From Methylophaga sp. (lineage in GTDB: Bacteria; Pseudomonadota; Gammaproteobacteria; Nitrosococcales; Methylophagaceae), in contig DRHW01000032.1 of the NCBI GenBank assembly GCA_011053005.1, forward strand, positions 1 to 64,000: a DNA stretch of 64,000 bases. The letters are read 5' to 3'. The notes under the pieces were generated by a model. That model made no database searches and had not been told where the DNA came from. It saw only the letters and a list, made by a program, of their open reading frames with translations. Positions 6,380 through 64,000 of the stretch are shown here, one piece after another. Within the stretch, counting starts at the first letter, position 1. Each line of letters starts with the position of its first letter. Position numbers and translations under genes: made by a program.

Positions 6380-7474
6380 TTAACTTATAAGAGCATCAAT
6401 TTCGTGACCAATTTCACTGTGGCTAACTAGGCGATGAAACCACTTATCAGCCACCGTGTCGCTTTGTAGTCCTAATAAAGCGCCCAGTACCATGCCCCGA
6501 TGGACGTTGTCACCGCCTAAGTTCGTATTTACCTTAAGTGCTTGCCAAGGATCGTTGTAGTATTTATAGGCTAAATACAATACAACCGGCCAAGAATCTG
6601 AAATGTAGCAGGCTCGCGAAAACATATTTCCTACTACCTGATGATCAGGTAAGTTGCGTTTTACAAGGTCTGAGACATCGAAACCTGACGATCTTTTTCC
6701 AGCTTCTGCCAAAAGTGTCTTAGTACCACTCTCATCTGGCCCTTCCATAAGTCCACAAAGCAGATTTACGTAGTGATCACATACTTGCATTAAGGAGTCA
6801 TCGGGATGTGTAAGAGCTAAGTGCTCTCGACATGTGGTTTGTATTGCATACTCATTGGCACCTTTAAGACGTTCCGAAAAAACTAACGGAGCTATTGTGA
6901 CTAATCCGCCTATTGAAGCAGTATCGTGTGTTTTCATGGCGCACTTTTCCGGTTTACGGCCTTGTGCATAGTTAGCAAAAAAGCCTCGGTGATATGACTC
7001 TGCATAAGTATCTGGGTGCGCTGGTGGTACTGCAGTCATGAAGTCAATATAAGCGTTAACAAATGCCTGTCTGTCATAACTTTCGGAGGTGCTGGCAAGG
7101 ACTCGCATTAAAACACGGGCACAGTGTGCGTTTAAAGTGTTCTCTCCTGCCTGCATGCCTTGATGATAATGCATGTTGGGCGTATCCCAGAACTGAGCCT
7201 TGTCTTTTAAAATCACATCTCCCACAACGTCGATGGTCGTACTACTTGATTTATCACTGGATTGACGGCCTCCTTTACGCTTTGAATGTAAAGACATAAT
7301 AGAGGACGGATGAAACTTAGGCGCACTCTCAAACTGCTGAATACCCCCTGGGAAAGCGCGCTCTATTTCGAGTGGCTGATAAAACCAATGCACTGGCATG
7401 GCCAGTGCATCTGCAATGAATTGTGTTTTAAGTGAGCTAGCGATGCGAAGTGATAGAGAAGAATGATGGCTCAC
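6380..7474 (-). CDS. ADP-ribosylglycohydrolase family protein
   Basis: This family releases ADP-ribose from proteins or small molecules, using two magnesium ions in an all-helical fold. The N-terminal DALAMPVHWFY (about residues 22-32) and the C-terminal NTNLGGDNVHRGMVLGALLG are the two signature regions. Most members have GGDTD at the second site; here it is GGDNV, so one metal-binding Asp appears to be missing, and the N-terminal D-S/D-T motif is also not evident. Activity is therefore uncertain. The length of 364 residues is normal. It stands alone between decayed attachment sites, so it is probably cargo of a former island; no partner ADP-ribosyltransferase is visible nearby. Confidence 0.8.
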   Translation of the reverse strand: MSHHSSLSLRIASSLKTQFIADALAMPVHWFYQPLEIERAFPGGIQQFESAPKFHPSSIMSLHSKRKGGRQSSDKSSSTTIDVVGDVILKDKAQFWDTPNMHYHQGMQAGENTLNAHCARVLMRVLASTSESYDRQAFVNAYIDFMTAVPPAHPDTYAESYHRGFFANYAQGRKPEKCAMKTHDTASIGGLVTIAPLVFSERLKGANEYAIQTTCREHLALTHPDDSLMQVCDHYVNLLCGLMEGPDESGTKTLLAEAGKRSSGFDVSDLVKRNLPDHQVVGNMFSRACYISDSWPVVLYLAYKYYNDPWQALKVNTNLGGDNVHRGMVLGALLGLQSDTVADKWFHRLVSHSEIGHEIDALIS

Positions 7475-56737: not shown

Positions 56738-57172
56738 CTCTTCTTTGCTTTTTGATATGACAACTATAAATCAAATACTCTGATCCCATTGATTTCCTCC
56801 TCTTTAAGCCACCCACCACCGCCATCTAGGCACAAATCTTAGTTTAGAGATTATTTCCTATAAGTAGGGAGCCCAATCAACAGTGCAACAGTAATAAATC
56901 TAATAGACACCAATACTCTAGCGAAAAGGCGAATAAATATCTATTTGGCCGAACGCTCGCGTTCCATGCACTGCAAAAGGCAGTATTAAAGAGAATACAA
57001 AAGCTACGTAGACGATGGTCTTCTGTTCTTAGGGGAACGGATCGACTAAGTCAGCTACACTAACCCCATTGATCACCGCGATCAGACAGGTGCTAGGGGC
57101 TTGTTCTTATTTTATCGGGTAACACCGGTTGGCGTAGTACCAGTCTCCCCTTAACTTTTGCAGGAGAAAAAA
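56738..57172. other. Non-coding stretch before the MDR dehydrogenase
   Basis: No credible ORF is visible. The interval must hold the divergent promoters for the M23 peptidase gene and the dehydrogenase. The last bases carry AGGAG, the ribosome-binding site for the ATG at 57173. No regulator site is recognisable. Confidence 0.5.
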
Positions 57173-58300
57173 ATGTCAAATATCAACATTGAACTTACTT
57201 CCACCATTAGCGAAGATAACAAACTGGAACTCGCCCTTGGCGAGATCGAGATACCGCAACCGGGCGAAAACCAGGTGGTCATCCGCATTGAAGCCGCTCC
57301 TCTCAACCCGTCAGACCTAGGGGTGATGTTCAGCGCAGCTGATATGACGACTGCCAGCCAATCCGGTAGTGCTGATCGCCCGATCATCAGTGCTGATGTC
57401 CCAGCCGAGTTCATGGATGCCGTTAAAAAGCGAGTTGGCAAGCCTATTCCCGTGGGCAATGAAGGTGCAGGAACCGTTGTCGCTGCAGGCTCATCCGCCG
57501 CCGCACAAAACCTGATGGGCAAAACCGTTGCGTTCATTGGCGGTGGTAGCTACCGCAAATACCTTTGTGCCAATGTGCAAAGCTGTCTGGAACTGGAGTC
57601 AGGTACGACGGCAGTCGAAGGCGCTTCCAGTTATGTGAATCCACTGACTGCATTAACCATGGTAGAAACCATGCGCGCTGAAGGTCACAAGGCTATCGTT
57701 CACGCTGCTGCTGCCTCTAACCTTGGGCAAATGCTCAACCGTATCTGCATCGCCGACGGCATCGACCTAGTCAATATTGTCCGCAAGCCGGAACAGGAAG
57801 CATTGCTACGCGATATGGGTGCCAAGTACGTGGTCAATTCCAGCAGCAACAGCTTTATGTCAGACCTGACCCAAGCACTGATCGACACCGGCGCTACTAT
57901 CGCTTTCGACCCCATCGGTGGCGGTAGTCTGGCTAGCGATATTCTCACATGCATGGAAGCCGCCATCTCTCGCAACATGACTGAATACAGCGTGTATGGA
58001 TCTGATATCTACAAACAGGTTTATATTTATGGCGGCCTTGATCGCAGCCCCATCACACTGAACCGCAGCTTTGGTTTTGCCTGGGGCGTAAATGGCTTTT
58101 TGTTGTTCAATGCATTAGGAAAGTTAGGTAATGAAACCACCGCTGTCATGCGCAAACGCATCGCCGCCGAGATCAAAACTACTTTCGCCAGTCACTATAC
58201 TCACGAAGTATCCCTGGCCGGTGCATTACAAATGGATGCGATCTCCGCTTATCGCAAGCAAGCTACCGGAGAGAAGTTCCTGATCAAACCACAGAGCTAA
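57173..58300 (+). CDS. MDR superfamily zinc-independent dehydrogenase
   Basis: I start at ATG 57173, seven bases after AGGAG. The 375-residue protein is a medium-chain dehydrogenase/quinone-oxidoreductase: PLNPSDLG and GNEGAGTVVAAG in the N-terminal domain and a C-terminal Rossmann fold with VHAAAASNLGQMLNRICI and FDPIGGGSLASDI. The usual zinc-binding Cys/His set is not evident, so it is probably a zinc-free, NADPH-dependent oxidoreductase. The family often acts on quinones or enoyl compounds. It has the same higher G+C content as the BdlA-like gene. Confidence 0.85.
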   Translation: MSNINIELTSTISEDNKLELALGEIEIPQPGENQVVIRIEAAPLNPSDLGVMFSAADMTTASQSGSADRPIISADVPAEFMDAVKKRVGKPIPVGNEGAGTVVAAGSSAAAQNLMGKTVAFIGGGSYRKYLCANVQSCLELESGTTAVEGASSYVNPLTALTMVETMRAEGHKAIVHAAAASNLGQMLNRICIADGIDLVNIVRKPEQEALLRDMGAKYVVNSSSNSFMSDLTQALIDTGATIAFDPIGGGSLASDILTCMEAAISRNMTEYSVYGSDIYKQVYIYGGLDRSPITLNRSFGFAWGVNGFLLFNALGKLGNETTAVMRKRIAAEIKTTFASHYTHEVSLAGALQMDAISAYRKQATGEKFLIKPQS

Positions 58301-58416
58301 CCTTTAGCGTCGGCGACAAGGTCATACTGGGCGCTGAAGTCAGATTGACTCCAGCGCTGGCATCAAAGGTAAACCTACGGATCGATGTATGACCCCATTG
58401 AACGCTTAGCTTAGTG

Positions 58417-58884
58417 TTATGATTTTTTAGTAGCTCTTAACATCCAAGCTGTTTTTTCATGTACACGCATACGGTCAGATACAAGAGCTGCAGTTGATTC
58501 ATCATCTACACTTTGCGCAATTTTTAAAACTTTACGGGACGTTTTAATTACTTGCTCATGACCTTTCGTTAAAATCTCAACCATTTCGGATGAACTTGGA
58601 ACTCCATCCACTTCTTTTATAGAGCTGAGTTTAGAAAATTCTTTGTAAGTTCCTGGTGCAGGCACATCAAGAGTTCTAATACGTTCAGCAATATCATCAA
58701 CAGCAACAGCTAACTCCGTATATTGCTCTTCAAACATCAAGTGCAATTCACGAAATTGTAAACCCGTTACATTCCAGTGAAAGTTATGTGTTTGTAAATA
58801 CAAGGTGTAAGAATCAGCTAATAGTTCTTTCAAACCATTTGATATTTCTGTTCTATTCTCTTTGTTAATACCAATATCTATCAT
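58417..58884 (-). CDS. dps: Dps-type DNA-binding ferritin-like protein
   Basis: The 155-residue protein has [12 protein letters not shown] (ferroxidase His) and [23 protein letters not shown] (Asp and Glu of the inter-subunit iron site). A 12-subunit shell that oxidises iron with peroxide and protects DNA is expected. The short N-terminus lacks a lysine-rich DNA-binding tail. It is convergent with the dehydrogenase. No clear OxyR or Fur site is visible upstream. Confidence 0.93.
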
Positions 58885-59130
58885 TTTATTTCCTCATTTG
58901 TAAAAATTGATTGTTCATAATGGCACGTGAAACAACTAAATCATAACGATCTAGTTAAGGTGCACGCGCGATAGTGCGAAAAATCAATGGGGTCAGTGTG
59001 AATCGATTGTTAAACAATAAGATGAAAACCCATAAAAACTATTAGAATCAATGATGCGGTTTATAAGATACCAATCAATCGAAACTGACCCCCCCCATTG
59101 ATTAAATTAAGCCAAATAAATCATCAAAAA

Positions 59131-59156
59131 AAGAACCGGCTTATATGCCGGTTCTT
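59131..59156 (-). terminator. Rho-independent terminator of sodC
   Basis: AAGAACCGGC pairs exactly with GCCGGTTCTT around a 6-base loop, with a T run after it on the minus strand. It lies 10 bp past the sodC stop. Confidence 0.85.
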
Positions 59157-59165
59157 CGTAATCGC

Positions 59166-59681
59166 TTAGTTGATGACACCGCAGGCTAAGCGCGCGCCGC
59201 CACCGCCAAGTGGTTTAGGATCATCCGAATAATTGTCACCATTAACATGAATCATCAAAGAGCGATTAGACAGATCTTTAAGCGTTAATCTAGGTGATAG
59301 CACCGGCAAGGTGGCCCGACCCTCTTCATCGACATATAAGACAGGCAAATCACCCTTGTGACCTTTAAAACTCCAAGGTTCAGCATGCTGTCCATTGCTC
59401 GCTGGGTCATAATGGCTGCCCGCTGCACCCCCGGGAACTAAATCACCATTTTTTTTCTTTGCTCCACACGATGCAACTTCATGCACATGAAAGCCATGAA
59501 TACCGGTAGGTAGATTGCTAAGGTTGGGCGTAAATATTGTTCCATAGGGATGGTTGCTAATCGTGACTGTTCCGACGCTCTCCCCCGTTTTGAGGTTGGT
59601 CATATCAACAGTGATCTGATTCGAAGCGAAAGCCGTTGAGGTGAGAAAGAGTGAGGTTAGAAAAGCATATTTAAGCTTCAT
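59166..59681 (-). CDS. sodC: Periplasmic Cu/Zn superoxide dismutase
   Basis: The 171-residue precursor has a signal peptide (to AFA). The copper and zinc ligands are present: GFHVHEVASC (two His and the disulfide Cys), GSHYDP, H in a QHAEPWSFKGHKGDLP stretch, and MIHVNGDNYSDDPKPLGGGGARLACG, with the electrostatic loop and second Cys. It should be active. It stands alone, with a strong terminator behind it. Confidence 0.95.
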   Translation of the reverse strand: MKLKYAFLTSLFLTSTAFASNQITVDMTNLKTGESVGTVTISNHPYGTIFTPNLSNLPTGIHGFHVHEVASCGAKKKNGDLVPGGAAGSHYDPASNGQHAEPWSFKGHKGDLPVLYVDEEGRATLPVLSPRLTLKDLSNRSLMIHVNGDNYSDDPKPLGGGGARLACGVIN

Positions 59682-59804
59682 GTTATCTCCTATTTATGTG
59701 TTATTTGCAGATGTTCCTGTCTCTATTATTTACTCCTTTCATCGTTATGTGTTTATAACGATGAAAGCAGACCTGTCACACTATCAAAAGCTAGTCTGAT
59801 ATTG

Positions 59805-59857
59805 GCATAACGCCAAGCGCAGCGGAAAATTTGTCCGACAGAAGCGCCTTGTTAAGT
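59805..59857 (-). other. attC site of the third cassette (end of the main array)
   Basis: On the minus strand it runs from R'' ACTTAAC to R' GTTATGC, with AAGGCGCTTC...TGGCG arms folding on each other; 53 bp. The crossover lies at 59811. It ends the main cassette array: past it, no further attC is seen until 40986. Confidence 0.8.
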
Positions 59858-59858
59858 T

Positions 59859-60692
59859 CTATTCGTACCATGAAGAAGTATCTACATCTAGCTCTTCAGA
59901 TTCGACGGTAAATTCTTCAGGGTTGTCTACATGAGACTTCATATTCAACGTGAAGGGGTAGCATTCATTTATTTCGCAAAGATCGTCCTTCGGCCCATAT
60001 TCTTGTGTGACATGTACATTACCACTGGCAACCACATAGATAAATTCATTATCAATTCCCGTGCACTCAATCTCTTCAACTTCGGTGTATTCAATATAAA
60101 CATGATTCGCAAGAAGCGACAAACTATCGGGTATAGCGCTCACAGCGGTAGAAATAACAGCCTCTCTTACCTTTTCTTCAAGCGCTTCGATAACAATTCG
60201 CTCAAGATCATTTAATTGATTTAGAGAATCCTTTGCTATTTCTATAACTACTTTTGCATCATGAAAAAACGACTTCGGCGAAACATCAAAATACTTCTCT
60301 GTTATATGCGTATATTTATTGAAGAAATTGAACTCGCCAAGAAACTCAGAAATACACTCACTCAAATGCTCAAGTACGGCTTCGCCAAGGTAAGCATCTG
60401 ATATATTTGATTGCGCGCAGTATTTAATCTGCTGCCTTCTTGTAACCTCATGCCTATCACTCTCGCGCTCATACCAAATAGCATTTTTTACCTGCTTAGG
60501 TGGTGCTTTTCTTTGAATTACATGCAATACCAGCTCTCTCATCGAGAAAGCAAAATTGTGAAATCTTAGAGGATTACCATGCGACGCATAATTTCTTAAG
60601 CTAGCCACAAATAGTCGATTTTCGAATTCTGTCTCCAGAAGAGACTGAAAACCTTGCATGAAATCCAGTGACAATAGTTTTTTGAGCTTCAT
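59859..60692 (-). CDS. Cassette protein resembling the predicted pPIWI-associating nuclease family
   Basis: The 277-residue protein is the only gene of the third cassette (59811-60711). NPLRFHNFAFSMRELVLHVI, then AIWYERESD and KYTHITEKYF form an all-helical first half. The second half is beta-rich, with HFxx-like HVYIEYTEVEEIECTGID, a PFTLNMKSHVDNPEEFTVE stretch and the ending DTSSWYE. This layout and ending recall the family named 'predicted pPIWI-associating nuclease' (pP_pnuc), usually found beside prokaryotic Argonaute-like or other defence genes. No Argonaute is nearby. The match is from memory of the pattern, not a search. Confidence 0.5.
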   Translation of the reverse strand: MKLKKLLSLDFMQGFQSLLETEFENRLFVASLRNYASHGNPLRFHNFAFSMRELVLHVIQRKAPPKQVKNAIWYERESDRHEVTRRQQIKYCAQSNISDAYLGEAVLEHLSECISEFLGEFNFFNKYTHITEKYFDVSPKSFFHDAKVVIEIAKDSLNQLNDLERIVIEALEEKVREAVISTAVSAIPDSLSLLANHVYIEYTEVEEIECTGIDNEFIYVVASGNVHVTQEYGPKDDLCEINECYPFTLNMKSHVDNPEEFTVESEELDVDTSSWYE

Positions 60693-60705
60693 GCTCCCCC
60701 TGAGA

Positions 60706-60783
60706 ACTTAACGCCCAAGCTCAGCCGCATTCTTGCCGTAGCGAAGCGGAGGCAAGAACGTCGGCTGGAGCGCCTTGTTGGGC
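60706..60783 (-). other. attC site of the second cassette
   Basis: On the minus strand it runs from R'' GCCCAAC (60783-60777) to R' GTTAAGT (60712-60706); 78 bp. The inner arms TTCTTGCC/GGCAAGAA fold into a hairpin. The crossover is at 60712/60711. Confidence 0.9.
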
Positions 60784-60787
60784 TTGC

Positions 60788-61090
60788 TTAGCCGGGTAGC
60801 TTCGCTGCAAGCACGTCAACTTTCTCGATTGACGGCGGCTCGGAGAACAACTCACCGGCTTTTGCCATTAACGCCGCAGCAACCTTGCCCGACAGATGCG
60901 CTTGTCGGCCCGCTTCATTGGGGAAGGCATCAAAGATTCCGAAGGTTTGTGGCCCAAGGCGTATGCCAAACCAAGCGGTCGTGGCTGGCTCTTCCATGAC
61001 GATGGGAAGACCACTCATAAGGAAGCTCTCAACCTCTTTCTCTTTTCCAGGTTTCGCTTCGAGGCGAACGAACAACGCTACTTTGACCAT
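60788..61090 (-). CDS. Antibiotic biosynthesis monooxygenase (ABM) domain protein, gene cassette
   Basis: The 100-residue protein starts MVKVALFVRLEAKPGKEKEVESFL, with TAWFGIRLGPQTFGIFDAFPNEAGRQAHLSG, the usual ABM ferredoxin-like layout. Such proteins act as small cofactor-free monooxygenases or as haem- or quinone-binding dimers; substrate unknown. It fills the second cassette (60712-61148) and has no promoter of its own that I can see. Confidence 0.88.
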   Translation of the reverse strand: MVKVALFVRLEAKPGKEKEVESFLMSGLPIVMEEPATTAWFGIRLGPQTFGIFDAFPNEAGRQAHLSGKVAAALMAKAGELFSEPPSIEKVDVLAAKLPG

Positions 61091-61142
61091 GACATATCTC
61101 CTATTGTTGTGACGACATTACTATACGCTACGTTTCTTGCAA

Positions 61143-61259
61143 GCCCAACGCCGCGCTCAGGGGCGGACAATGCTATGCACCTTTGTGCGAAAATGGGAGC
61201 GCAGCGACCAGCACAAAGGTGCATAGCATTGGCCGTCCCTCTGCAGCGCTTTGTTAGGC
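61143..61259 (-). other. attC site of the first cassette
   Basis: On the minus strand it runs from R'' GCCTAAC (61259-61253) to R' GTTGGGC (61149-61143); 117 bp. Its long middle part is a 21-bp inverted repeat (CAATGCTATGCACCTTTGTGC is the arm, 20 bp of which begin at CAATGC). The crossover is at 61149/61148. The stop of the first ORF is inside the R'' box. Confidence 0.92.
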
Positions 61260-61865
61260 GCGATTTCCAGATTTCTGAGTTTGGTCCGCATCTTGTAGTA
61301 TTTTTATACCGCCACGAATCACCACGATTGATATTATTGTTCCCACAATTAGGTCGGGATAGCGACTGCCAACGATGGCAACAAGAACACCAGATATAAT
61401 TACCCCCAAGTTGGCAATGACATCATTTGTTGAAAATATCCACGAAGCGCGCATGTGTACGCCGCTATCTTTGTGCTTGGAAATGAGAATTAAACAAATG
61501 ATGTTTGCCAGGAGGGCAACCGCACCGACAACAATGATAAGAGTGCTTTGAGGTTCACTGCCAAAAAACATACGCCTGATCACTTCGAATAAAACGCCAA
61601 GCCCCAAAATTATTTGTAGGTAACCGCTCACTCTAGCCGCCTTTGCTTGCTTCACGACTCCTTTCCCAACTGCATATAGTGACAGACCATAGACAGTAGC
61701 ATCAGCTAGCATATCTAGCGAGTCAGCGATAAGCCCGGTAGATTGCGCCAACCAGCCCAGCGTTAATTCAGTAACAAACATAAATGCATTGATAGATAAC
61801 AGAATGATGAGAGTTTTCTTTTCCAGACTCTCCGCTTGTTCTGCCCCACAACCACAATCTGACAT
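61254..61865 (-). CDS. CDF-like cation transporter, first gene cassette
   Basis: The 203-residue protein is a short member of the cation diffusion facilitator superfamily with about six spans. LIADSLDMLADATVYGLSLYAVG carries the D-x-x-x-D metal site of TM2, and FSTNDVIANLGVIISGVLVA the site of TM5 (N-D). There is no cytoplasmic C-terminal domain. It starts with a Cys pair (SDCGCGAE). It is the cassette next to attI (61149-61894), the position that is transcribed best. Metal is unknown; Zn, Co or Cd are the usual ones. Confidence 0.87.
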   Translation of the reverse strand: MSDCGCGAEQAESLEKKTLIILLSINAFMFVTELTLGWLAQSTGLIADSLDMLADATVYGLSLYAVGKGVVKQAKAARVSGYLQIILGLGVLFEVIRRMFFGSEPQSTLIIVVGAVALLANIICLILISKHKDSGVHMRASWIFSTNDVIANLGVIISGVLVAIVGSRYPDLIVGTIISIVVIRGGIKILQDADQTQKSGNRA

Positions 61866-61889
61866 ATTTCCTCCTACTTCAGTAAGGCG

Positions 61890-61907
61890 CCTAACTTGTT
61901 ATTAACG
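61890..61907 (-). other. attI core of the integron
   Basis: The minus strand reads CGTTAATAACAAGTTAGG followed by CGCC; the core GTTAGGC (GTTRRRY) is the crossover (61895/61894) at which the first cassette was inserted. It lies 87 bp from the intI start, as expected for attI. The boundary of the full attI is not defined here. Confidence 0.8.
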
Positions 61908-61913
61908 GGAATA

Positions 61914-61993
61914 ATAATTCCCTGTAATTTATATACATATACGGACTATAATTCCCTGTAATTGAATAATCAAGTAAAAAGCAGGAATTATTA
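61914..61993 (+). promoter_or_regulatory. Repeated motif and possible promoter before intI
   Basis: ATAATTCCCTGTAATT occurs at 61914-61929 and again at 61948-61963, 34 bp apart. The reverse-complement form (CAGGAATTATTA) occurs at 61982-61993, right before the start codon. A TATAAT at 61947-61952 is a candidate -10 box. They probably serve IntI binding (direct repeats next to attI) or regulation of intI. AGGAA before the ATG is the ribosome-binding site. Confidence 0.5.
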
Positions 61994-63028
61994 ATGGCCT
62001 ATCAAATACCTCCTTCTGAAAAAGCGCAATTTAAACCTCATTCGATTCGTTTGATGGATCAAGTGAGGGAGGTGATGCGCTATCATCATTACTCAATCCG
62101 AACAGAGGAAGCTTATATTAAGTGGATCCTTGCATTCATACGTTTTAATGGTAAGCAGCATCCGAAGTCGTTGGGTAAGCGTGAAATTGAAGGTTTTTTA
62201 TCTGACATGGCGGTGAATAAGAACTATGCGGCATCAACACAAAGCCTTGCCCTAAATGCCATTGTGTTTCTTTATAAGCGTGTTTTAGATTTACCTATTG
62301 CCGATGATTTAGAGCCTACACGCTCAAAAAAGGCTGTTCGTTTGCCTGTTGTGTTGAGTAAAACGGAGGCCGCTCAGATTTTATCTGCAATGACAGGTGT
62401 CAATGCATTGTTAGCAAAGCTGATGTATGGCGCAGGTTTACGAGTGATGGAGTTACTTCGTTTGCGAGTCCAGGATATTGATTTTGCCAATGGGTACTTA
62501 ATCGTACGTGATGGTAAAGGTGGCAAGGATAGGTCAACATTATTAGCTCAATCAATTGTGCCTGAGTTGAAGGCGCACTTAGTGGAAATAAAAGCGTTGT
62601 TTGAGCAAGATCGTGCAGACAATGTTGCGGGCGTTTATTTACCCAATCTGTTGGATAAAAAGTTTCCAAATGCAGGTGTGACATGGGGTTGGCAATATGC
62701 TTTTCCTTCTAAAACATTATCAACGGATCCCCGAACGGGAGCGATCCGACGTCATCATTTAGATGAGTCCGGTTTAGGAAAGGCGTTGCGTGCAGCGAAA
62801 GTTAAAGTGGGGATTGATAAACGCGTGACATCACATATATTTCGACATTCATTTGCCACGCACTTGTTGGAAGCGGGTACCAATATTCGTGTAGTACAAA
62901 AGTTATTGGGCCACGCTGATGTGAAAACGACCGAGATTTATACTCATGTTTTGCAACAAAATCTTCAGGCAGTGACAAGTCCTCTAGAGTTGATTCAGTC
63001 TGCGATTGACAATGATTCATCCTCTTAA
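61994..63028 (+). CDS. intI: Integron integrase IntI
   Basis: The 344-residue tyrosine recombinase has the catalytic set R150, K178, H281, R284, H307 and Y316 (GAGLR, HIFRHSF, LLGHADVKTTEIYTHV). It has the integron-specific insertion at about 216-255 (LPNLLDKKFP, GVTWGWQYAFP, STDPRTGAIRRHH), which distinguishes IntI from XerC/D. The gene is intact, so it should be able to excise and insert cassettes at attI. It is divergent from the array. It is not class 1: no qac/sul 3' segment is near, and the host genes around it are chromosomal. Confidence 0.96.
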   Translation: MAYQIPPSEKAQFKPHSIRLMDQVREVMRYHHYSIRTEEAYIKWILAFIRFNGKQHPKSLGKREIEGFLSDMAVNKNYAASTQSLALNAIVFLYKRVLDLPIADDLEPTRSKKAVRLPVVLSKTEAAQILSAMTGVNALLAKLMYGAGLRVMELLRLRVQDIDFANGYLIVRDGKGGKDRSTLLAQSIVPELKAHLVEIKALFEQDRADNVAGVYLPNLLDKKFPNAGVTWGWQYAFPSKTLSTDPRTGAIRRHHLDESGLGKALRAAKVKVGIDKRVTSHIFRHSFATHLLEAGTNIRVVQKLLGHADVKTTEIYTHVLQQNLQAVTSPLELIQSAIDNDSSS

Positions 63029-63104
63029 GTCATAACCCGTTTCAAATTGATACTTTAACTAGCTGGCGGAACGACCTCCTGTTGATGACACTATAAACAG
63101 GAAC

Positions 63105-63119
63105 TAGACGACCGGTCTA
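63105..63119. promoter_or_regulatory. Operator-like palindrome before the NemR-like gene
   Basis: TAGAC-GACCG-GTCTA is a palindrome 15 bp before the start of the TetR-family gene (63134). Its GACCGGTCTATT (63110-63121) recurs exactly at 63787-63798 before the SDR gene. NemR binds TAGAC-type palindromes with GGTCTA halves, so this is a likely auto-operator. Confidence 0.65.
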
Positions 63120-63133
63120 TTCTTTGTTATGGT

Positions 63134-63745
63134 ATGTCCATGAATGCAATTACTCAAACACGAACAGGTGATACACGCCAACATATTTTATCCGTTGCTA
63201 AGACGCTTATTCTTGGTAAGGGCTTTAGTGCGGTTGGGTTAAGTGAGATCCTTAAAACAGCACAAGTACCTAAGGGATCTTTCTACCACTACTTCGATTC
63301 AAAAGAACATTTTGGTACCGCGCTGCTTGAAAACTACTTTGATGAGTACTTGGCTAAATTAGATGTGACGCTAGATGTGACGAATGGCAAAGCCGCCTTG
63401 CCATTATTATTCGACTATTTTGAAGGTTGGAAAAGCAATCAATGTAGCGACATTACAAATACCAAATGTTTGGTGGTAAAACTTAGTGGTGAAGTGTCGG
63501 ATTTATCAGAAGCGATGCGTCTCGCTTTAAAATTAGGTACGCAACGCGTGATTTCACGTTTGGCACAGTGTCTTCAGCAAGCGGTTGATAATAAAGAAAT
63601 TGTACTTGCTGACGATGCGCTAACGATTGCTAAAGAGATTTATTATCTTTGGATTGGCGCGACACTGATGGCAAAAGTGAATCATACAGCGGATGCCTTT
63701 GATGTTGCCAGTAAGGCACTTTATTCACGTCTTAAAGGCGTTTAA
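63134..63745 (+). CDS. NemR-like TetR family regulator
   Basis: The 203-residue protein has a TetR helix-turn-helix at about 13-60 (GLSEILKTAQVPKGSFYHYFDSKEHFG). The C-terminal half has KCLVVKLSGEVSDLSEAMR, very like NemR of E. coli, in which the Cys before L-x-V-K-L-S (Cys106) senses electrophiles and bleach; the corresponding Cys here is C112. So it may be a redox-controlled repressor. It shares an operator-like motif with the next gene, an SDR, its likely target. Confidence 0.85.
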   Translation: MSMNAITQTRTGDTRQHILSVAKTLILGKGFSAVGLSEILKTAQVPKGSFYHYFDSKEHFGTALLENYFDEYLAKLDVTLDVTNGKAALPLLFDYFEGWKSNQCSDITNTKCLVVKLSGEVSDLSEAMRLALKLGTQRVISRLAQCLQQAVDNKEIVLADDALTIAKEIYYLWIGATLMAKVNHTADAFDVASKALYSRLKGV

Positions 63746-63781
63746 CCAATAGTCATTCAGTCAATTTATTTGTGTAAAAAA

Positions 63782-63799
63782 TAGTTGACCGGTCTATTA
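63782..63799. promoter_or_regulatory. Operator-like motif before the SDR gene
   Basis: TAGTTGACCGGTCTATTA contains a 12-bp exact copy (63787-63798) of the motif before the NemR-like gene, about 65 bp before the SDR start. It is half-palindromic here. This supports control of the SDR gene by the regulator beside it. Confidence 0.6.
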
Positions 63800-63863
63800 G
63801 TAGCCGGATTTGGCTAGTCGCAAGTCTATTGAATGCGTTTATTTAAATAGTTAAGGAAAATTA

Positions 63864-64000
63864 ATGACATCACTAAAAGATAAAGTAGCTCTTATTACAG
63901 GCTCATCAAGAGGTATTGGCGCTGAGATAGCGATGACGTTTGCACTAGCTGGCGCTAAAGTCGTTATTAATTATTCTGGTAATAAACAAGCTGCCGACAA
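63864..64000 (+). CDS. SDR-family oxidoreductase, cut by the window edge
   Basis: The frame MTSLKDKVALITGSSRGIGAEIAMTF is the start of a classical SDR with the NAD(P)-binding TGSSRGIG. The ATG at 63864 is preceded by AAGGAAAA. The gene runs off the right edge after ~45 residues. Given the shared operator, it may act on a reactive carbonyl or quinone sensed by the NemR-like regulator. Confidence 0.85.
   Translation, partial: MTSLKDKVALITGSSRGIGAEIAMTFALAGAKVVINYSGNKQAAD

Follow-up and report, generated by a model that had tools for sequence, protein, structure and literature searches.

We identified an intact gene of the pP_pnuc family ('predicted pPIWI-associating nuclease') at positions 59859..60692 (minus strand) of the window, the 64,000-nucleotide stretch of Methylophaga sp. 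DNA analysed here, where it occupies the third and last cassette of an integron array. The gene is a real cassette-borne member of a known family, it is one among at least nine pP_pnuc copies carried by cassettes, and no Argonaute or PIWI gene was found beside it among the neighbouring genes scanned. To judge from the sequence, its product is likely to be a stand-alone defence unit. The full reading that we prefer, to which we give an even chance, is that this one-gene cassette encodes a mobile protein of defence type, which acts independently of Argonaute, by HEPN-like RNA cleavage leading to abortive infection. 'Nuclease' in pP_pnuc is part of the family name, and the activity itself is predicted.

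Family membership of the cassette gene

The open reading frame starts with ATG, is preceded by a purine-rich stretch that reads like a Shine-Dalgarno sequence, and encodes 277 residues ending in DTSSWYE. The protein consists of two Pfam domains, PF18165 (pP_pnuc_1, residues 17-152, 7.7e-41, 139.3 bits against a gathering score of 26.3) and, directly after it, PF18166 (pP_pnuc_2, residues 161-276, 8.3e-35, 120 bits against 25), with scores that exceed the gathering values by 113 and 95 bits, respectively, and are far above chance. The PADLOC model Aga_Nuclease (PDLC02413) matches over its full length (1.3e-59, model positions 4-267 of 267), as part of the same picture PHROG 29508, annotated as of unknown function, matches with 8.5e-113, and the RefSeq name 'pPIWI-associating nuclease domain-containing protein', found on NZ_CP103610.1, denotes the same family. 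The preliminary description had named this family from the sequence alone, and the HMM search that it proposed bears this out for both Pfam domains and for the PADLOC model. In contrast to what the Pfam, PADLOC and RefSeq names imply, there is no adjacent pPIWI or Argonaute gene here, and none that is convincing in other records of the family.

Anatomy of the integron array

The integron integrase gene occupies 61994..63028 of the plus strand, its product scoring 425 bits on TIGR02249 (cut-off 265; 1.6e-127), and the first insertion box beside attI, GTTAGGC (61889..61895, minus strand), is the complement of the R'' box of the first cassette. Three genes follow IntI, all on the minus strand, namely a CDF cation-efflux membrane domain (61254..61865; PF01545, 9.4e-16), a protein of 100 residues (60788..61090; PHROG 6411, 3.9e-57), for which no Pfam family was matched, and the pP_pnuc gene. 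The attC between the first and second cassettes (61143..61259, minus strand) has a bottom-strand fold with a z of -8.9, and the attC upstream of the pP_pnuc gene (60706..60783, minus strand; R'' GCCCAAC, R' GTTAAGT) one with a z of -3.2.

In all three cassettes the start box and the R'' box are exact complements (GTTAGGC/GCCTAAC in the CDF cassette, GTTGGGC/GCCCAAC in that of the 100-residue protein, and GTTAAGT/ACTTAAC in the pP_pnuc cassette). In the last of these, the start box occupies 60706-60712 and the R''-type box 59851-59857, just past the stop codon, and the complementary boxes together with the blastn borders delimit a whole cassette of about 901 bp (59811..60711, minus strand). Its distal end is a short attC-like site (59805..59857, minus strand; R'' ACTTAAC, R'-like GTTATGC), whose own foldback is weak (59803-59855, -8.0 kcal/mol, z -0.83).

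That the cassette truly moves as a unit is best proved by comparison with Vreelandella songnenensis (locus L001), in which the DNA homology stops at the cassette borders. When the minus strand of window positions 59001-62000 was compared with this locus by blastn, a single match was obtained, with 80.5% identity over 868 bp, spanning window positions 60712 to 59845, which fits both the border at 60711 and the R'' box. The placement of the gene in a cassette by the preliminary description thus stands, on the integrase and its array, on the complementary boxes, and on the homology ending at the borders. An Rfam scan of positions 57000-64000 gave no match. An imperfect inverted repeat (GGGGTCAGTGTGAATCGATTG ... 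CAATCGAAACTGACCCC) lies between two genes at 58985-59103 and is possibly the remnant of a mobile element.

Cassette-borne relatives and spread of the family

A scan taking one genome per species retrieved seven relatives of the cassette protein, with 47-88% identity. All seven have a YYNAACA box between -5 and +14 of the stop codon, for which 0.04 per locus is expected by chance, and six have CGTTRR 30-37 bases upstream of the start; in the seventh, the Vreelandella copy, the upstream [CG]GTTRR pattern is absent and the start box is instead recognised by its exact complementarity. A copy on a Vibrio coralliilyticus plasmid (L014) also presents cassette boxes. The boxes overlap the stop codon in L006, L007 and L014, while in L004 and the near-identical L005 exact complementarity is missed, by one base on reading both boxes. 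Overall, the downstream box matches in 10 of the 28 loci, nine of which are credible, the tenth (L019) being a copy on a P1-like phage-plasmid without other cassette signs. Since the hand-made attC rule also hits shuffled loci (0-3 hits per shuffle), attC counts per locus were not taken as proof, and box position and exact complementarity were used instead. One relative, L003, carries its own IntI (42% identity) within the flank, which no other cassette relative does in the flanks examined.

In the flanks to which PADLOC was applied, two of the cassette copies have neighbours that look to be of a defence type. In Vreelandella, the open reading frame past the attC (L001:5854-6861), probably the next cassette, is a PDC-S31-type defence candidate according to PADLOC, and the gene before the Vibrio plasmid copy (L014:4894-5850) encodes a DUF6602/NucC-like protein, with an attC-like stretch between both.

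For the phylogenetic analysis we used an alignment of 38 members, which omits near-duplicate or truncated sequences (L005, L016, L017, L020, L021, L024, L026, L029, L030, L035, L037, L038 and L070), and from which L033 and five coiled-coil members were removed to give a tree of 32. The window and Vreelandella copies group in this tree with L018, a copy on a contig of a viral collection (73% identity). To explain the distribution of the cassette copies, four changes of label are required, and well-supported branches force four; the gene has therefore moved into or out of cassettes on more than one occasion.

The family is rare. PF18165 was found in 2 of 95 related genomes, the window's own included, and in 4 of 394 genomes sampled around a Shewanella genome, two of which already belong to the set of relatives; PF18166 was found in 1 of 398 genomes of the phylum, again the window's own. 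Relatives occur on 58 of 72,556 plasmid records, and the E. coli form in 18 of 5,426 complete genomes; three of the E. coli copies were inspected, and their settings resemble those in P1-like phage-plasmids, with genes for baseplate or tail proteins near two of them and an IncY replicon carrying the third. Scanning the viral collection with a profile built from the family alignment gave 22 loci; a single-sequence scan of the same collection had confirmed none of its four candidates, and neither of two pP_pnuc queries matched the INPHARED phage records. The carriers of the family are viral-collection contigs, P1-like phage-plasmids, conjugative plasmids and integron cassettes.

Structural model and conserved residues

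The AlphaFold2 model of the cassette protein (25 sequences, pLDDT 88, pTM 0.82) is helical up to residue 193 (helices 22-36, 41-62, 85-94, 104-128 and 139-186) and continues with four strands within 197-268 (197-213, 217-232, 239-254 and 261-268), in agreement with the helical first half and beta-rich second half that had been read from the translation together with the DTSSWYE end. The C-terminal sheet resembles cystatin/NTF2-like folds (best Z 8.6, 91 residues), an arrangement that is common and uninformative on function. No sequence relatives were found in the PDB (best of 5 matches, E 0.73), and Foldseek searches of the PDB with the whole protein and with the helical domain gave nothing at E <= 0.001. 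The single match below 0.001 in BFVD was set aside, with a TM of 0.16.

When the N-terminal 164 residues were modelled alone (pLDDT 90), the best structural neighbours were the HEPN domains of the RNase LS proteins, E. coli RnlA (6y2p; Z 7.1, rmsd 4.5, 128 residues) and LsoA (5hy3; Z 6.7, rmsd 4.1, 120 residues). HEPN proteins account for 10 of the best 50 matches (6y2p, 5hy3, 4i8o, 7aex, 7bxo, 6m6u, 6m6w, 3o10, 5yep and 2hsb), with several HepT and other matches near Z 6; all of these, including RnlA and LsoA, are below the level of trust for helical bundles, between which, as the tool warns, a Z of about 7 can arise by chance. No match to single HEPN-type sequences was obtained with hhalign (probabilities of 0.57 for RnlA, 0.41 for an Abi_C protein and 0.14 for a DUF4145 protein), which is weak evidence against HEPN kinship, since the templates were single sequences at an effective depth of 1.

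N40, R52 and H129 are invariant in all 38 aligned members, and R85, T128 and E53 are found in 37, 36 and 34 of them, respectively; all six are present in the cassette protein. H129 is located at the end of helix 3, and E53 within helix 2 (41-62); these are the places of the HEPN His and acidic residue according to the available sections of PMC3710099. Shared with RnlA and LsoA are this invariant His closing helix 3 and the conserved Arg/Glu of helix 2. Unlike them, the cassette protein has no motif Arg and no sequence similarity to them, it reaches a Z of only about 7, its sheet domain is C-terminal, and an antitoxin gene is not adjacent. The HEPN motif Rx4-6H is missing in that there is no Arg 5-7 residues before H129; according to the same sections of PMC3710099, there are HEPN families in which the His is retained and a different basic residue may take over. 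In a coiled-coil subfamily, three of five members have R-VFNDGT-H (Rx6H), and His replaces that Arg in the other two. This subfamily (L044:5597-6490 and L066-L069) combines a coiled-coil-like N-terminus with PF18165, and PF18166 was not found in L044.

The predicted fold gives a weak indication of a HEPN-like RNase and none of a known DNase. The order of secondary structure elements does not suggest a PD-(D/E)XK core of the kind found in bAgaN. The latter, likewise called an Argonaute-associated nuclease, is described in the consulted part of PMC10620215 as a RecB-like PD-(D/E)XK DNase adjoining a long-B pAgo, whereas the cassette protein is modelled as a helical bundle followed by an antiparallel sheet and has no adjacent Argonaute. 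Given the absent motif Arg, the Z near chance and the negative hhalign result, we do not class the protein as a HEPN RNase, even though it may work like one.

Proposed mechanism

In the mechanism that we propose, the N-terminal four-helix domain (1-164) would be a HEPN-like ribonuclease or RNA-binding domain, with H129 at the end of helix 3 and N40, R52, E53 and R85 completing the putative site. The long helix 139-186 and the cystatin-like sheet (197-268) could form a dimerisation or sensing part that keeps the N-terminal domain inactive until a phage cue frees it, whereupon the freed domain would cut RNA and the growth of the infected cell would stop, as in abortive infection. On its sequence, the protein is likely to be a one-gene abortive-infection protein.

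Partner genes and alternative roles

Another possible reading, which we rate at about half the likelihood of the one just described, is that pP_pnuc is a shared sensor or adaptor that licenses interchangeable effectors, Argonaute being one of several, so that the cassette copy would be either an orphan adaptor using an effector encoded elsewhere or a one-gene form that has regained an effector role. It draws on the genes found next to the family on plasmids and other elements. In four plasmid copies, with overlaps around position 6800, pP_pnuc overlaps by 4 bp a Lit peptidase gene (L059 and L072), a small gene that is followed by Lit (L071), or a caspase gene (L065), and these overlapping Lit and caspase pairs are probably translationally coupled. 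In the tree, the copy next to the caspase gene and the three associated with Lit are sisters (support 100/99), from which we infer that the partner was swapped, and which suggests that pP_pnuc partners are swappable. In the coiled-coil subfamily, the L069 copy lies 24 bases from a gene for a patatin-like phospholipase (PADLOC phospholipase effector model, 2.1e-107). On plasmid Rts1 (L012, 5001-7471) and in two relatives (L016 and L026), a PD-T7-1/PD-T7-5-type gene follows about 23-36 bases downstream, a probable two-gene operon on this classic resistance plasmid and the two other elements.

Against a general adaptor role, 31 of 43 loci have no close downstream partner by our rule (a same-strand open reading frame starting -40 to +60 bases from the gene), and among the 12 loci that the rule flagged, the one in Vreelandella is a separate cassette and not a partner. 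Furthermore, all nine cassette copies are single genes, and the invariant His with Arg, Asn and Glu resembles an active site rather than an interface alone. Two other arrangements were observed in the family. An endonuclease/exonuclease/phosphatase protein gene lies downstream in L031, and L061:5245-6813 encodes a fusion of 522 residues in which pP_pnuc_1/2 is preceded by a stretch of about 245 residues with no named Pfam family. Separately, in a prophage-like stretch (L045:4649-6764), pP_pnuc is flanked by an integrase gene on one side and an Abi_C/AbiJ-like gene on the other.

A less probable explanation than the adaptor role, and one that we doubt, is that the gene is toxin-like or stabilising and serves to protect the array or plasmid instead of the cell, without acting against phages. 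Plasmids, phage-plasmids and integrons are all known to carry addiction genes, and it is on such elements that the family is found. However, there is no antitoxin-like partner inside the cassette, and those neighbours that have names are often of a defence type. By name or by PADLOC, they include PD-T7-1/PD-T7-5, Abi_C/AbiJ, Hachiman, AbiEii, CBASS and restriction enzymes, and, as an uncontrolled observation, such names are frequent near the plasmid copies.

Argonaute in genomes carrying the family

The preliminary description regarded a lone member with no Argonaute partner as special, a view that does not hold, as this is the rule in the family. Among the 44 genomes and records with pP_pnuc, the PADLOC short-pAgo model matched only in the window's own genome and on one plasmid (W04), the latter match (38 residues, E 0.0045) being read as noise. 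The Piwi family (PF02171) was found in none of 34 family records; of ten others, the window's own genome was the only one with a match, and this fell short of the curated cut-off. Control genomes show that the Piwi and short-pAgo models each recover just a part of the Argonautes present, so that a very divergent one could escape both. With a convincing Argonaute in only one of 44 genomes or records, and unlinked there, the family name misleads about the partner.

The one convincing case is a short pAgo of 472 residues (pAgo_I, 1.5e-187) encoded in the window's genome on contig C15, with an upstream SIR2-type APAZ partner gene that is cut by the contig end (L043:2-2322). It would be very surprising if the cassette protein served as an accessory nuclease to this short pAgo, which has its own partner and sits on a different contig from the pP_pnuc gene (C32), and no pAgo was matched, at the thresholds used, in any of the seven other cassette-bearing species genomes.

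Equally improbable is that the gene is an unexpressed or decayed passenger: it is last in the array, its distal attC is short and folds weakly, and a promoter scan found sites no more numerous than in shuffles, and yet the reading frame is intact, the six best-conserved polar residues are kept, and a leader resembling a ribosome-binding site precedes the ATG. The last position and the result of the promoter scan do mean that the gene may be poorly expressed.

Implications for the family and for defence cassettes

Cassettes with defence genes are well established; at least 16 of 179 Vibrio cholerae cassettes have anti-phage activity, as reported in the part of PMC12409362 consulted, and the defence cassettes of chromosomal and mobile integrons (Darracq et al. 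2025 and Kieffer et al. 2025, as cited in that part of PMC12409362) likewise contain one small promoterless defence-type gene each. An open-access literature search by family names, a scope outside which the main defence-cassette papers lie, found no paper on pP_pnuc, and the one pPIWI-RE paper retrieved does not name the family in the sections available. To that extent, the earlier remark that pP_pnuc was not known in a cassette is uncontradicted. What appears to be new here is the repeated cassette habit of the family, the near-absence of Argonaute, the partner swapping suggested by the tree, and the HEPN-like layout of the predicted structure.

Taken further than the one-gene abortive-infection protein that we prefer, these features may mean that pP_pnuc is misnamed. 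It would be a sensing module, derived from HEPN, in a modular defence system, and its partner would change between a Lit protease, a caspase, a patatin, a PD-T7-type nuclease and, at times, Argonaute. What integrons carry would then be the module pared down to a single self-sufficient gene, and this minimal form would have passed into or out of cassettes repeatedly, with at least four changes on the tree. We put this forward tentatively, as a minority view of the data.

Although Pfam, PADLOC and RefSeq annotate the family as an Argonaute partner nuclease, most of its copies are carried singly, by cassettes and other mobile elements. If the proposed role is confirmed, the cassette gene would be a small, single-gene and readily cloned defence unit, one that would allow testing whether HEPN-like chemistry runs without the motif arginine, and the family would provide an example of one module pairing with protease, caspase, lipase or nuclease effectors.
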